NCBI RefSeq assembly: GCF_000735345.1 | Contig: NZ_JMPJ01000047.1 | Coordinates: 1 to 64,000 of the forward strand | DNA length: 64,000 nt | Direction of reading: 5' to 3' | Source of the DNA: Ewingella americana ATCC 33852 | GTDB lineage: Bacteria > Pseudomonadota > Gammaproteobacteria > Enterobacterales > Enterobacteriaceae | Shown here: positions 6,748 to 49,501 of the stretch, piece by piece | Layout of the letters: every line of letters starts with the position of its first letter | How positions within the stretch are numbered: position 1 is the first letter of the stretch | Notes under the pieces: model-generated | Database searches by the model: none | What the model saw: the letters and a program-made list of their open reading frames with translations, nothing else | What the model was told of the DNA's origin: nothing | Position numbers and translations under genes: made by a program

Positions 6748-6780
6748 AGCGACTTCTGGGCGCTTTCTTTTCAATTTCAT

Positions 6781-7080
6781 CTTAAGGTCAAGGTCGTGCG
6801 CTGCCGCCACACCGGCCTTAAGGTCAAAACCTTGCGTTGCCACGCAAACTGGCCCAAAGGGTTTTAAACGAAACCCTTTGGAATCCTGCGTTTTTTTGCT
6901 GCTGGAAGATCGAGGCTTCGCAGGGTCGGAATGGACATGTTTCAGCGACCAAGGTGATCGCCGCGAAGTGCCGCAGCTTAGGCGGTTCCCGAATTTCAGG
7001 TTTCGAGCCTTTGGTCTCGAACCATTCATTCGGCGTCACTTCTGAATGCGACTTACTGGCATTTCAACCGTGCCGTTTCA
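6781..7080 (+). repeat. Mosaic hairpin repeat, copy 1 (forward)
   Basis: About 300 bp in the gap between the convergent ROK and AraC genes. From left it holds two tandem small-hairpin units separated by AAGGTCAAAACC (the second is TTGCGT-TGCC-ACGCAA), then a perfect 11-bp hairpin at 6854-6881 (arms CCAAAGGGTTT and AAACCCTTTGG). A CCTGCG/CGCAGG stem around a T7 tract follows, then a GCCGC..GCGG element, a TTCGAG/CTCGAA stem, and the terminal block ending CCGTGCCGTTTCA at 7080. It shares its left part with copies 3 and 5 and its TTCGAG stem with copy 2, so it is a mosaic. No protein function is claimed for the open frames crossing it. Confidence 0.88.
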
Positions 7081-7098: not shown

Positions 7099-7221
7099 GC
7101 CTCCCCCTGATAAGGGGGAGGCTGGGAAGGGTATTGCAGCAAAATCAGTGGGTTAGCCCAATCTCGGAGTGGGTTTACTCCTTCTCCTCTCAGAGGAGAA
7201 GGCAGGGATGAGGAGTGGTTT
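7099..7221 (+). repeat. Accessory hairpin and module A, copy 2
   Basis: Directly after mosaic repeat copy 1 come a 9-bp hairpin (7099-7122, arms GCCTCCCCC and GGGGGAGGC, loop TGATAA) and the palindromic module A (palindrome 7180-7202, then a GGATGAGGAGTGGTTT flank to 7221). The linker with GGGTATTGCAG and GGGTTAG also occurs after copy 2 at 12964-13020, so linker and module A travel with the repeat. Together with copy 1 this fills the whole 503-nt gap between two convergent genes. Confidence 0.82.
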
Positions 7222-12707: not shown

Positions 12708-12963
12708 ATTCAAATTCAAAACCGTGCGCTGCCGCCACACCGGCCTCAAGGGGCGCCTATCGCCGCGCCCCTCAAGACTCCCCGGCTCTTCACTGCGCGC
12801 TTCGCTGGTGAGGCGGACGTGTTTCAGTTACTTCCGTTATCCACCGCAAAATGTCGCCGCTTAGGCGGTGCCCGAATTTCAGGCTTCGAGCCTTTGGTCT
12901 CGAACCATTCATTCGGCGCCATTTTTGACTGCGGTTTTGAGGCATTTCGACCGTGCCGTTTCA
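12708..12963 (+). repeat. Mosaic hairpin repeat, copy 2 (forward)
   Basis: It begins with two ATTCAA hexamers (12708-12719) and one small-hairpin unit, followed by the variable-stem hairpin at 12749-12772 (arms AGGGGCGC/GCGCCCCT, loop CTATCGCC). Then come the GCCGCTTAGGCGG element, the TTCGAG/CTCGAA stem and the terminal CCGTGCCGTTTCA block. In the middle it resembles copy 4 rather than copies 1, 3 and 5. It faces copy 3 head to head and lies upstream of the AfuABC-like operon, so that operon's promoter must lie within about 100 nt of its first gene or inside the repeat. Confidence 0.87.
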
Positions 12964-13020
12964 TTGGGATGGGGTATTGCAGAAAACTCAGCGGGTTAGT
13001 TCAGTCTTGGTGGGTTTGCT

Positions 13021-13118
13021 CCTTCTCCTCTCAGAGGAGAAGGCTGGGATGAGGAGTGGTTTAAAATCATGCTCAATCTGGCAAACCTCACCCCAGACCT
13101 CTCCTTAAAAAGGAGAGG
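13021..13118 (+). repeat. Module A copy 3 and adjoining hairpin
   Basis: Module A palindrome at 13021-13043 (arms CCTTCTCCTCT/AGAGGAGAAGG) with its GGATGAGGAGTGGTTT flank to 13062, then a separate 9-bp hairpin at 13098-13118 (CCTCTCCTT/AAGGAGAGG, loop AAA). They lie at the junction between the two inverted mosaic repeats. Confidence 0.85.
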
Positions 13119-13135
13119 GAGTAAACCCAAAACAC

Positions 13136-13450
13136 TGAAACGGCACGATGTAAATGCCAGTAGGTCGCATTCAGAAGTGACGCCGAGCAAGAGGTGGAAA
13201 ACCGCGTGGCTTTTTACGCGGGTTGGAATCCCGCAGCGAGGGAACCGCCTAAGCGGCGGCACTTCGCGACGATCACTGTGGCTGCTGAAACATGTCCATT
13301 CCAACCCTGCGAAGCCTCGATCTCCCAGCAGCAAAAAAACGCAGGATTCCAAAGGGTTTCGTTTAAAACCCTTTGGGCCAGTTTGCGTGGCAACGCAAGG
13401 TTTTGACCTTGAGGCCGGCGTGGCGGCAGCGCAAGGTTTTGACCTTAAAG
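13136..13450 (-). repeat. Mosaic hairpin repeat, copy 3 (reverse)
   Basis: An inverted copy that starts with the terminal block (TGAAACGGCAC at 13136) and runs to AAGGTTTTGACCTTAAAG near 13450. The variable-stem hairpin at 13349-13376 has the same 11-bp stem as copy 1 (arms CCAAAGGGTTT/AAACCCTTTGG) and is flanked by the same CCTGCG..CGCAGG and TTGCGT..ACGCAA units. Where copies 1 and 2 have the TTCGAG/CTCGAA stem, this copy has another hairpin around CCGCGTGG..TACGCGGG, shared with copy 5. With copy 2 and module A it fills the 865-nt gap before bcsG. Confidence 0.88.
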
Positions 13451-17447: not shown

Positions 17448-18164
17448 ATGCCTGTTATTGCCCTTCAGGGGATCCGTGGTGGTTGCGGCGTCACCTCAGT
17501 GACCGCGGCACTGGCTTGGGCGCTGGCTCAGTCCGGCGAGAAGGTGTTAGCCATCGACTTTTCTCCCGCCAATCTCTTACGTTTGCACTTCAATATGTCT
17601 TATGACTCAGCCCGTGGCTGGGCCACGGCGGTGCGTGCGGGAGAGGGCTGGGAGCAGGGCGCGATGCGCTATAACGCCCAGCTTGATTTCTTGCCTTTCG
17701 GCCAACTGCCTGCCATTGAGCAGGCGCAGGTTTACTGTGACTGGCAAGATAACCTGACAAAAATCGCTAATACCGGCATCTATGATTGGGTGCTGCTCGA
17801 CACGCCTGTTGACCAACCTGCATTAGCGGCGCAGGCGCTCTCTATTGCCGACCACACCTTTACTTTGTTGCATGCCGACAGCCAGTCGCACGTTCGCCTG
17901 CATCAACAGGCTGTGCCTACAGATAGCCATTATCTGGTGAATCAGTTCATGCCCGCCAGCCAGTTACAGCAAGACATTCTGCTGCTGTGGCAACAGAGCC
18001 TGCCGCGCCTGCTGCCGGTGATTTTGCATCGCGACGAAGCCATGGCGGAGTCTCTGGCGGCTAAGCGCCCGGTAGGCGAGATGGCGCCACAAAGCAAAAG
18101 CTGCCAAGAGATCCACGCACTCGCCAGCTGGTGCCAAATCCACCTGCGCGCGGGGCAGAAGTAA
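17448..18164 (+). CDS. bcsQ: BcsQ MinD/ParA-like ATPase
   Basis: A 238-residue SIMIBI ATPase required for cellulose secretion. The P-loop is the BcsQ-type deviant GIRGGCGVTSVTAALAWAL (about 7-25), with no Lys before the GG, as in E. coli. The switch region DWVLLDTP is present. The gene is intact, unlike the premature stop in laboratory E. coli K-12. Its stop overlaps the bcsA start (TAATG), indicating coupling. Confidence 0.94.
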   Translation: MPVIALQGIRGGCGVTSVTAALAWALAQSGEKVLAIDFSPANLLRLHFNMSYDSARGWATAVRAGEGWEQGAMRYNAQLDFLPFGQLPAIEQAQVYCDWQDNLTKIANTGIYDWVLLDTPVDQPALAAQALSIADHTFTLLHADSQSHVRLHQQAVPTDSHYLVNQFMPASQLQQDILLLWQQSLPRLLPVILHRDEAMAESLAAKRPVGEMAPQSKSCQEIHALASWCQIHLRAGQK

Positions 18165-20779
18165 TGAGTCGTCTGCTTCGCGCCTTGCTGGTGCCTCCGG
18201 TCGCCAGCGCCTTACAACAGCGCTATCGTCATTATCGCCAGCAGGGCGCGTCAGTCGTTGCTAGCCTGCTGATGGTGACCTGCGTGGCGCTGGGCTGGCT
18301 CTTGCTGCGCTTTGAGTCTCCGGCGTGGCAGCGCGTGCGCCAACGCCGCGCCCAGTGGTTCCCGCATATTTCAGCCCAGCGCCCGCGCCCGGCGGACCCA
18401 ATCCGCTACCTGCTTCAAACCTGCTGGCTGCTGCTGTTTATCCCCGCTGGCGGCCTGCGCGGGCGAGTCAAAGTCAGCGACTGGCCGCAGCGTCTGCGCG
18501 CCAGAGTGCATAACTGGCTCGGCGCGGTCCCCGCGCGCATCACTCACAGCCCCTTGTCAGACAAGGTGATGCATCCAATACGCGGCCTGAGCAAGTTGGC
18601 AAGGCGCGTGTTGATTGTCTTGGGTTCAGTGGTCGCCGCCGTGCTGGTGATGTTCTGCATCTCGCAGCCCTTTGGCTATCTGGCGCAGTTCGTGTTTGTG
18701 GTGCTGCTGTGGAGCCTCGCCATGCTGGTGCGCCGCATTCCCGGGCGCTTCCCAACGCTGATGCTGATCGTCCTCTCGCTGACCATCTCCTGCCGCTATC
18801 TGTGGTGGCGCTACACCTCGACCCTCAACTGGGATGACCCGGTGAGCCTGATTTGCGGCCTGCTGCTGTTGGCGGCGGAAACCTACTCATGGGTGGTGCT
18901 GGTGCTGGGCTACTTCCAGACCATTTGGCCGCTGAACCGTAAGCCGGTGCCGATGCCTGCTGACATCGCCGTTTGGCCACAGGTTGACCTGCTGATCCCG
19001 ACCTATAACGAACCGCTTAGCGTGGTGAAACCGGCGATGTACGCCGCGCTGGGGCTGGATTGGCCGAAAGAGAAACTGACCATTTGGCTGCTCGATGACG
19101 GCAATCGCCCTGAGTTTGCCGACTTCGCCAAGGAAATTGGGGTGCAGTACATTGCGCGCCCAACCCACGAACACGCCAAGGCGGGCAACATCAATAATGC
19201 CTTGAAGCAGTGTAAAGGGGAGTTGGTGGCGATTTTTGACTGCGACCACGTGCCAACGCGCTCCTTCTTGCAGCTCACCGTCGGCTGGTTCTTCAAAGAC
19301 AGCAAGCTCGGCATGTTACAGACCCCGCATCACTTCTTCTCGCCGGATCCGTTCGAACGCAATCTGGGCCGGGTGCGCCGCACGCCAAACGAGGGCGAGC
19401 TGTTTTATGGTTTAGTGCAGGACGGCAACGACCTGTGGGATGCCAGCTTCTTCTGCGGCTCTTGCGCCGTACTGCGCCGCAGCGTGCTGGATGAAATCGG
19501 TGGTATTGCGGTAGAAACTGTCACCGAAGACGCCCACACCTCACTGCGCATGCACCGCCACGGCCACACCTCGGCTTATATTCGTATTCCACAGGCCGCC
19601 GGTCTGGCGACGGAAAGCCTGTCGGCCCACGTTAACCAGCGTATTCGCTGGGCGCGCGGCATGGTGCAGATTTTCCGGCTCGACAACCCGCTGTGGGGCA
19701 AAGGGTTGAAGCTGGCGCAGCGCCTTTGCTATGCCAATGCCATGTTGCACTTCTTGGCGGGTATTCCGCGGCTTATCTTCCTGACGGCGCCTTTGGCCTT
19801 CCTGCTGCTCAATGCCTACATCATCTATGCTCCGGCGCTGGCTATCGCGCTGTACGTGCTGCCGCACATGGTTCACGCCAGTCTGGCGACCTCGCGGGTG
19901 CAGGGTAAATATCGCCACTCCTTCTGGAGTGAAATCTACGAAACCGTGCTGGCGTGGTATATCGCCCGGCCAACCACGGTGGCGCTGTTTAACCCGCACG
20001 CCGGGAGCTTTAACGTCACGGCGAAAGGGGGGATGCACGACAAGTCTTATGTCGACTGGAAAATCACCCGGCCTTATCAGTTCCTGATGCTGCTCAATCT
20101 GCTGGGCTTCGGCGTGGGCATCTGGCGTCTGTTCCACACTCAGTCCGACGAGTTTTATACCGTGCTGATAAGCCTGGCGTGGGTGACCTACAACATGATC
20201 ATTCTCGGCGGCGCTATCGCCGTGGCCTTTGAAGCCAAGCAGGTCCGGCAGGCGCATCGCGTGGAAGTCTCCATGCCCGCCGCGCTGGCTCGTGAAGATG
20301 GTCATATCTATGTCGCCACATTGCAGGACTTCTCAGACAGTGGTGCAGGGATCGCCACCGCCAGCGCCGCGCACTTCAGTAAAGGTGACAATGTCACATT
20401 ACTGCTTCAACGTGGCCAGCAAGAATATGCGTTCCCGTGCCGCGTAAGCCGGGTGTTTGGTGAAAACATTGGCGTGCAGCTGCTGCCGATGACCACCGCG
20501 CAGCACGTCGATTATATCCAATGTACTTTTGCCCGCGCCGACAGCTGGGTAGTTCGTGGCGACAGCTTCCCAGAAGATAAGCCGCTGGAAAGCCTGCGAG
20601 AAGTGCTGGGGCTGGGCATCCGTGGCTATCTGCGCATGCTGGATATTGCCCCTTATCGCTTCCGCCCGCTGGTCGCTCGCAGCAACACCTTTGGCCGCTG
20701 GGCTATCTCTTTCCTGCCGCGCAATCCGTCGCTCTCCGCGCAGGCTGATGATTCAACCTTAACGATGACAAAAAAATGA
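18164..20779 (+). CDS. bcsA: Cellulose synthase catalytic subunit BcsA
   Basis: An 871-residue inner-membrane GT2 synthase that polymerises UDP-glucose and extrudes the chain. Motifs in order are LLDDGNRPEF (UDP binding), FDCDHVPT (DxD), FFCGSCAVLRR (finger/acceptor site), VTEDAHTSLRMHRHG (TED) and QRIRWARG (QxxRW). A C-terminal PilZ domain shows RQAHR with DFSDSGAG, the two c-di-GMP-binding motifs. I use ATG 18164, which overlaps the bcsQ stop, giving the E. coli-like opening MSRLLRALL; a frame extending to 18131 is less likely. The length equals the enterobacterial norm. Confidence 0.97.
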   Translation: MSRLLRALLVPPVASALQQRYRHYRQQGASVVASLLMVTCVALGWLLLRFESPAWQRVRQRRAQWFPHISAQRPRPADPIRYLLQTCWLLLFIPAGGLRGRVKVSDWPQRLRARVHNWLGAVPARITHSPLSDKVMHPIRGLSKLARRVLIVLGSVVAAVLVMFCISQPFGYLAQFVFVVLLWSLAMLVRRIPGRFPTLMLIVLSLTISCRYLWWRYTSTLNWDDPVSLICGLLLLAAETYSWVVLVLGYFQTIWPLNRKPVPMPADIAVWPQVDLLIPTYNEPLSVVKPAMYAALGLDWPKEKLTIWLLDDGNRPEFADFAKEIGVQYIARPTHEHAKAGNINNALKQCKGELVAIFDCDHVPTRSFLQLTVGWFFKDSKLGMLQTPHHFFSPDPFERNLGRVRRTPNEGELFYGLVQDGNDLWDASFFCGSCAVLRRSVLDEIGGIAVETVTEDAHTSLRMHRHGHTSAYIRIPQAAGLATESLSAHVNQRIRWARGMVQIFRLDNPLWGKGLKLAQRLCYANAMLHFLAGIPRLIFLTAPLAFLLLNAYIIYAPALAIALYVLPHMVHASLATSRVQGKYRHSFWSEIYETVLAWYIARPTTVALFNPHAGSFNVTAKGGMHDKSYVDWKITRPYQFLMLLNLLGFGVGIWRLFHTQSDEFYTVLISLAWVTYNMIILGGAIAVAFEAKQVRQAHRVEVSMPAALAREDGHIYVATLQDFSDSGAGIATASAAHFSKGDNVTLLLQRGQQEYAFPCRVSRVFGENIGVQLLPMTTAQHVDYIQCTFARADSWVVRGDSFPEDKPLESLREVLGLGIRGYLRMLDIAPYRFRPLVARSNTFGRWAISFLPRNPSLSAQADDSTLTMTKK

Positions 20780-42330: not shown

Positions 42331-42353
42331 TTTGCGCTTTTAAAAGCTCGAAA

Positions 42354-42675
42354 CTTAAGGTCAAGGTCGTGGGCTCGCCGCCCACACTGGCTGGAACCTT
42401 GCGTTGCCACGCAAACTGGTCTTTAAGGTCAAAACCGTGCGCTGCCGCCACACCGGCCTTAAGAGGCGCCTATCGCCGCGCCTCTTAAGAATCTCCGGCT
42501 CTTTACTGCGCGCTCCGCTCGTCGGGCGGACCTGTTTCAGATACACCTGTTCTCCACCGCAAAATGTCGCCGCTTAGGCGGTACCTTCGCTGCGGGTTCA
42601 AGCCTTGGGTCTTGAACCTCTTGCTCAGCGCCATTTTTGACTGCGGTTTTGAGGCATTTCGACCGTGCCGTTTCA
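42354..42675 (+). repeat. Mosaic hairpin repeat, copy 4 (forward)
   Basis: The left part has three tandem small-hairpin units: GTGGGC..GCCCAC, TTGCGT..ACGCAA and GTGCGC..GCCAC, separated by GGTCAA/AAGGTCAAAACC spacers. Then comes the variable hairpin 42458-42489, a perfect 12-bp stem CTTAAGAGGCGC/GCGCCTCTTAAG with loop CTATCGCC. After the GCCGCTTAGGCGG element the stem that is TTCGAG/CTCGAA in copies 1 and 2 is TTCAAG/CTTGAA here, with both arms changed. The terminal block ends at 42675. It lies between convergent ynfD and cbl. Confidence 0.88.
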
Positions 42676-42730
42676 GTAGATTTAACTTTGATCCTTTCCT
42701 ATTTAGGGGAGGAGCAGAACAGTACTCCAC

Positions 42731-43035
42731 TGGAACGGCACGGTGTAAATGCCAGTAGGTCGCGTTCAGAAGTGACGCCGAGCAAGAGGTGGAAAACCGC
42801 GTGGCTTTTTACGCGGGTTGGAATCCCGCAGCGAGGGAACCGCCTAAGCGGCGGCACTTCGCGACGAACACCGTGGTCGCTGGAACACGTCCATTCCAAT
42901 CCTGCGCAGCCTCGATCTCACAGCAATAAAAAACGCAGGGTTCCAAGGGAGGCGCGTTTACGCCTCCCTTGGTCGGTGTGGGCCGACGCCCACGGTTTTG
43001 AATTTGAAATTGAACTTGAACTTGAACTTGAATTT
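42731..43035 (-). repeat. Mosaic hairpin repeat, copy 5 (reverse), with hexamer array
   Basis: An inverted copy facing copy 4 across a 55-nt spacer. Its first 150 bases match copy 3 closely. The variable hairpin at 42943-42972 is a perfect 12-bp stem (CCAAGGGAGGCG/CGCCTCCCTTGG, loop CGTTTA), unlike copy 3. The next small hairpin is GTGGGC..GCCCAC. The outer end is six tandem TTGAAN hexamers (42998-43033) where copy 2 has two. Open frames across the pair read FEFEIELELELEF in this array and do not look like a protein. Confidence 0.88.
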
Positions 43036-43069
43036 AAAGATTCTAAAAGCAGCTCAGGCCTGCAGCCCC

Positions 43070-49402: not shown

Positions 49403-49501
49403 CCTCCCTTTCAGGAGGGGGCTAGGTGGGGTGTGGGGTGGTTGCATTGAGCATGATTCAAACCACTCCTCATCCCAACCTTCTCCTCTGAGAGGAGAAG
49501 G
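49403..49501 (-). repeat. Hairpin and module A, copy 4
   Basis: A short CCTCC..GGAGG hairpin (49403-49418) with a GGGGCTAGGTGGGG flank, then the 42-bp module A (49460-49501) with its perfect palindrome at 49479-49501. The orientation is that of the copy at 20-61, and the flank is alike. There is no full mosaic repeat here. It lies between convergent LysR and apbE genes. Confidence 0.82.

Follow-up and report, generated by a model that had tools for sequence, protein, structure and literature searches.

Three-strand covariation in a mosaic palindromic repeat of Ewingella and Rahnella points to a short intrastrand-triplex-type DNA motif

Intrastrand triplex motifs fall into four classes, with BoxC/PIT in class II, according to the parts of PMC4666352 on which all statements about that source rest here. 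BoxC forms a stable triplex in vitro, in vivo DMS footprinting of BoxC gave no triplex, and no promoter or terminator activity was found. The same parts mention a stem length of 6-15 nt for an ITxF search and state that the purine motif is unable to form in RNA. Class I purine-motif/PIT elements carry on one strand, in succession, a reverse-Hoogsteen, a purine and a pyrimidine segment, use G.G-C and A(T).A-T triads and have many intergenic copies; the hairpin slot described here (slot 1) resembles them in all of this, but differs from PIT/BoxC in its triad runs of 4-6, against 9-nt BoxC stems, and from PIT in having many stem sequences that covary in three strands rather than one consensus, and in lying within a palindromic mosaic repeat. 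BoxC/TM_ECO elements (class II) follow the order pyrimidine, loop, purine, spacer, mirror purine with 9/9 triads, as do some central modules of the present repeat, whereas slot 1 has the opposite (class I) order; the published TM_ECO pattern (CCCTCNCCC N3-6 GGGNGAGGG N3 GGGNGAGGG) has no match in the stretch of DNA analysed. REP/BIME repeats with their RAYT, as far as the partial descriptions used here go, are likewise mosaic palindromic hairpin repeats of intergenic DNA, but the present family, unlike them, does not conserve its stem sequence. A REP/RAYT system was rejected, given that Y1_Tnp (TnpA-REP) occurs in three of the six genomes of the Ewingella group and in neither the genome under study (G000) nor G001 or G005. 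ERIC/RU, YPAL and other enterobacterial repeats are also palindromic and intergenic, a likeness of description and not of sequence. Searches of an open-access library for repeats in these genera brought up no paper that seems to describe this family, and three-strand covariation was not found in print there; the word covariation does not occur in PMC4666352.

The window, that is the whole stretch of 64,000 nucleotides of Ewingella americana ATCC 33852 (contig NZ_JMPJ01000047.1), holds five hairpins, at the positions given in the initial annotation, which occupy one fixed slot of a palindromic mosaic repeat family. In copy 1 (6854..6881, arms CCAAAGGGTTT/AAACCCTTTGG) the proposed folded strand is the minus strand, read from the centre of the element to its edge, and the flank bases f2-f5 (6883..6886, minus strand) would supply a third strand of four triads by the purine rule given below. 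Copy 3, in the inverted half (13349..13376, plus strand), is also of the CCAAAGGGTTT type, with four triads by the same rule from f2-f5 at 13344..13347 (plus strand). Copy 4, CTTAAGAGGCGC (42458..42489, minus strand), has six triads from f2-f7 (42491..42496, minus strand), and copy 5, CCAAGGGAGGCG (42943..42972, plus strand), read from the sequence, has five purine-rule triads from f2-f6 (42937..42941, plus strand). For copy 2 the hairpin AGGGGCGC annotated at 12749-12772 is present, but the slot is longer, running from 12745 to 12776 (minus strand, CTCAAGGGGCGC/GCGCCCCTCAAG) with two mispairs that are G.T on the minus strand; its f2-f7 (12778..12783, minus strand) give six triads by the purine rule. 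A difference at a second slot, also noted at the outset, is present: slot 2 of copy 4 (42597..42616, no strand assigned) reads TTCAAG/CTTGAA, against TTCGAG/CTCGAA in copies 1 and 2 and at the same locus of the relative G001. Slot 2 varies little, being mostly TTCGAG, in a few cases TTCAAG, or another hairpin altogether. The pairs of a third slot (GTGGGC/GCCCAC, TTGGGT/ACCCAA, TTGCGT/ACGCAA) covary. Slot 3 stands in an upstream array of units of about 37 bp, of which there are two in the window at 6780-6853 and three at the same locus of G001 (L205, about 1980-2091).

Copies 2 and 3 form one imperfect palindrome (12709..13449, no strand assigned) with 43-nt ends that are 88% complementary, and copies 4 and 5 form another between convergent genes (42354..43040, no strand assigned, ends approximate). 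The slots face inwards in all 81 of the two-slot Ewingella-group loci outside the window, at an end-to-end spacing of 357-679 nt. A covariance model of the slot, run with stricter filters, gave at least 68 matches in the genome of the window and at least 69, 57, 69, 78 and 50 in five relatives of the Ewingella group; six Rahnella genomes have 39-79 matches each at E 1e-5, again lower bounds, and among the candidates scored in 54 genomes of other sampled genera there was no slot match at E 1e-6. An exact-pattern search returned 39 matches in the window's own genome; across 394 genomes of the order it had matches in 2. Many assembly contigs begin or end within repeat copies (C26, C40, C43-C45, C51, C54, C57 and others), and given that the repeat breaks the assembly in this way, copy counts may be low. 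Among the 50 of 126 Ewingella-group loci with enough flank, 33 lie between convergent genes, 11 between tandem and 2 between divergent genes, and 4 are unclear, the orientations being taken from crude reading-frame calls. The convergent-gene site of copies 4 and 5 (window 42331-43066) holds the element in G000 and G001; in G002-G005 (L217-L220, L222, L223) the same site has no element and, by eye, a short terminator-type hairpin. No target-site duplication was definable at this empty site or in Rahnella. The same outer palindrome occurs in two Rahnella genomes (L260 about 18100-18700 against L300/L304) and encloses, depending on the genome, either a copy of this element or another hairpin that is long and perfect, an arrangement of palindromes nested in palindromes. 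Rahnella has a further hairpin type beside GCCGAAACCG (L266 8894-8965, L264 64-131, L262 1024-1108) with longer matched third-strand runs, such as CCAAAGAGGG with AATCTCC, which is apparently a related module within a different repeat.

Three readings of the slot were rejected: a Rho-independent terminator, since about 9 nt separate the stem from the T run in the TAAACG type and the CTATCGCC type has no T run; a known structured RNA, with no Rfam match in the window at gathering thresholds; and coding sequence, since a swap between A- and B-type slots, which are 28 against 30 nt long, would shift the frame by the 2 nt of difference.

The Ewingella-group counts over all copies come from alignments A3 and A4, 251 rows in all, with 25 of the 175 matches of one search lying outside the set. 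In the Ewingella group, skipping rows shorter than 66 nt left 218, of which 215 have the hairpin, and with two spurious ones removed 213 entered the mispair and third-strand counts (212 in another count). The 186 Rahnella rows, less 8 short ones and 8 with no good hairpin, gave 170, and 135 once 35 same-place duplicates were removed. Two-arm covariation was measured on 26 selected sequences with 12-nt arms (18 pairs, 468 cells) in a structure-aware alignment, A2, which replaced an alignment, A1, that was not structure-aware. In A2 97.9% of the 468 cells pair, against 80.1% when shuffled and 33.8-53.0% when slid, and both sides have changed in 83 cells, where shuffles average 23.2 and none of 500 reaches the observed value; such changes affect 13 of the 18 pairs and include G-C to C-G and A-T to T-A. 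One measure of the five, further pair types, gave 19 against 17.3 shuffled and was matched by 95 of 500 shuffles, and the 12-pair helix of these 26 sequences has no one-sided G.U cell in the direction modelled. Arms that change independently, the outcome that would have spoken against the initial annotation, were looked for: hairpins are perfect in 163 of 213 cases in the Ewingella group and in 62 of 135 non-duplicate cases in Rahnella, and a single kind of wobble accounts for nearly all the mispairs. Counting every usable copy, the Ewingella group has 73 distinct combinations of arm and loop, and Rahnella has 54.

The annotation had also described the flanking sequence as kept while the arms change; the arms do covary, but the bases beside the inward arm change with them. 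Lying immediately inside the hairpin, these bases follow each position of the inward arm, in mirror order, with f2-f6 matching pairs a4-a8, as in CCAAAGG with AATCC, CCAAGGG with AACCC and CCAGGGG with ACCCC, or in CTTAAGAGG with AATCTCC and CTTGAGGGG with ACTCCCC, and where the stem is longer by one base the flank is longer by one base. The match is confined to one register: at one offset it is 0.931 against a shuffled maximum of 0.724, with the other offsets near their shuffles, and for f3-f6 it comes to 0.917 overall (Ewingella group 0.894, Rahnella 0.949), the next offset giving 0.579. The f3-f6 match was reached by none of 2000 shuffles, also with shuffling within loop class, and this is true of each genus; such shuffles, like the binomial p below, are not true probabilities, given that the copies are related and recombining. 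In the left flank, with the same geometry, nothing comparable appeared, one value of 18 lying marginally over its shuffled maximum (0.336 against 0.323). An A at f2 accompanies A-T in 79 rows, a C there accompanies an inward-arm C in 43, and the 4 exceptions are all T; both states of the a4/f2 pair are found, matched, in six loop backgrounds. This three-strand relation is well supported.

Read from centre to edge, the relation follows the purine-motif rule, G over G-C and A or T over A-T, in a test that covers 365 of 383 instances, or 332 of 348 non-duplicates, in 126 distinct rows, under a filter (arms of at least 11 nt, flank starting with A) that favours the common type. The rule holds in 124, 121, 121, 122, 95 and 29 of the 126 rows at f2, f3, f4, f5, f6 and f7 respectively, that is 96-98% at f2-f5, 75% at f6 and 23% at f7, and the purine-rule score is 0.925 at offset 2 with 0.565 as the next best. 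A pyrimidine-motif triplex on the other strand fails at f2, where its rule is followed in 33 of 126 rows. Of the 332 usable non-duplicate copies, 323 have at least four contiguous triads (4 in 106, 5 in 162, 6 in 55) and 9 have fewer. Measured against class I, the order reverse-Hoogsteen, purine, pyrimidine on one strand is found at one register, the purine-motif triads G.G-C and A(T).A-T at f2-f5 and less regularly at f6, and six triads, the lower end of the ITxF stem length mentioned in PMC4666352, in 55 of 332 copies, with 4-5 in 268.

The mispairs are one-sided. Read from edge to centre, they amount in the Ewingella group to 22 A.C and 6 C.A distinct-stem cells against 1 G.T, and in Rahnella to 26 and 9 against none; read from centre to edge, these A.C and C.A mispairs are G.T wobbles. 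Counted as local-context events, A.C and C.A together make 42 against 1 for G.T and T.G (two-sided binomial p 1e-11 if independent), the single opposite G.T event being included in this count and excluded by threshold in another. Within a4-a8 a C-to-T change in the pyrimidine arm would keep a G.T wobble and the G.G contact, whereas a change in the purine arm would break both; the bias is 36 to 1 inside a4-a8 and 16 to 0 distinct-stem cells outside the triad region, and being present also outside the triads it points to the same strand as the folded one. Strand-biased mutation was rejected: rare variants in unpaired inner element DNA have no overall strand bias (G>A 30, C>T 26), although their direction differs by class (G>A outnumbers C>T by 10 to 3 in one class, and C>T outnumbers G>A by 14 to 7 in a second), and slot-3 mispairs, by a pattern that also picked up some unrelated sequence, have none (12 C.A and 1 A.C against 8 G.T and 5 T.G distinct, 13 against 13).

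Flank identity allowed eleven loci of the window's genome to be paired with loci of G001, in two cases on the evidence of one flank. Between window 42458-42496 and L216 of G001 five bases differ, namely two compensated pairs and f5, which faces one of them (a7), and slot 2 of copy 4 differs from L216 by one compensated pair. One half of the L028/L057 element differs by two compensated pairs and f2, the second half by a swap of the whole stem; in W2/L210 the whole stem is swapped together with the neighbouring module. In L015/L060 a single purine-to-A step gives A.C with the flank the same; L009/L070 and L012/L071 have other stem changes, L011/L063 a change of loop and f1, and slot 1 is the same in W1/L205, L010/L062, L023/L068 and L025/L066. 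Exchange of whole cassettes, one of the two processes first put forward, thus stands as a second process beside selection, orthologous loci differing by fully compensated pairs or complete stem swaps.

Class II (BoxC-like) modules accompany the repeat. One lies in the inner part of copy 1 (7100..7132, plus strand; pyrimidine segment 7100-7108, purine segment 7113-7121) with a degenerate third strand from 7125 that makes 7 of 9 triads, counted by eye; another is beside copy 1 (7180..7215, plus strand; CCTTCTCCTC tca GAGGAGAAGG cag GGATGAGGAG), and a third, recognised from its sequence, occupies the middle of the element formed by copies 2 and 3 (13021..13056, plus strand). Further modules of this kind are on the minus strand at 27-61, 13083-13118 and 49471-49501, those near 39-61 and 49479-49501 being away from the large repeats. 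The central modules comprise five types. Compared over 2-10 sequences per type, each scores best with the third strand native to it, which gives 8.4-9.0 of 9 triads, where the strands of the other types give 6.7-8.0.

Given the covariation of both arms, the covariation of the third strand at one register and the one-sided wobbles, which together make up the comparative evidence, slot 1 is probably an intrastrand-triplex-type DNA motif of class I, short, similar in kind to PIT/BoxC and maintained by selection. On the centre-to-edge strand a 5' purine run (f6-f2) would be followed by the hairpin, with a purine run (a4-a8) in its 5' arm and a pyrimidine run in its 3' arm; the f6-f2 run would fold back antiparallel along the purine arm as the reverse-Hoogsteen third strand of a class I purine motif, a1-a3 and f1 forming the turn. 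Such a fold may form whenever this strand becomes single, as it could during replication or in supercoiled DNA, and selection may keep it because it serves the upkeep or the spread of the repeat itself, or because it acts locally on polymerases where genes end. In the likeliest course, template switching and cassette exchange would supply the variation and selection would act on the fold of the single strand. A DNA triplex appears to be the simplest reading found for the three-strand relation; against it are the shortness of the triad runs (4-6, with f7 fitting in 29 of 126 rows) and, for BoxC as a motif of similar kind, the negative in vivo footprint and the lack of promoter or terminator activity. 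The selection on structure proposed at the outset is supported, but the constraint is one of three strands and not two, and of the two carriers then named, RNA or extruded DNA, single-stranded or extruded DNA is favoured, with the centre-to-edge wobbles taken together with the purine motif speaking against RNA.

It is possible to see the slot instead as a structured RNA, a hairpin kept in a transcript read from centre to edge with some other pairing role for the flank, and wobbles on one strand only are what an RNA of that strand would tolerate. This is unlikely: RNA triple helices use the pyrimidine rule, which breaks down at f2, the centre-to-edge strand would need a purine motif that RNA, according to PMC4666352, is unable to adopt, inspection by eye showed no Watson-Crick partner for the flank, and the window lacks an Rfam match. 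Neutral quasipalindrome template switching, which would keep the arms complementary with no selection, is known in microbes, makes and mends perfect stems (PMC8794818, in part) and agrees with the many perfect stems of both genera. It may well be the source of the paired changes, yet as the whole explanation it seems improbable, given that copying reverse complements could not make or keep a mirror-ordered third strand and would give no reason for the asymmetry of the mispairs. RNA structure, or template switching alone, leaves the third strand unexplained.

A further possibility is that the association is one of history, with arm-plus-flank blocks spread by recombination from a few founders, and the same-locus stem swaps of W2/L210 and L028/L057, like the single outer palindrome with different inner cassettes in two Rahnella genomes, are of the kind that such exchange would leave. 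History of this sort does not predict triad rules, nor is it easily reconciled with both a4/f2 states being matched across six loop backgrounds, with longer stems having longer flanks, or with a match at one register that the left flank, bar one marginal value, lacks; as an account of the covariation it seems improbable. Last, the shortness of the tracts and their strict positions would suit a protein for which arm and flank together make up a single duplex recognition site, its purine runs in mirror order, but what is kept is a relation between positions and not sequence identity, which a duplex reader does not require, and this is very improbable.

A further-reaching reading of the three-strand comparison is that natural selection acts on a triple-stranded DNA fold itself, at hundreds of sites on the chromosomes of both genera, and that the folding strand is thereby identified; the chances of this appear evenly balanced. 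If so, evolution would provide evidence that intrastrand triplex DNA is active in living cells. Dozens of sequences with the same three-strand relation provide a probe-free evolutionary test that tells which strand folds, and the natural variants of the family, which have 4, 5 or 6 triads and either carry wobbles or lack them, lend themselves to bench work. Compensatory changes in a stem, furthermore, need not mean RNA.
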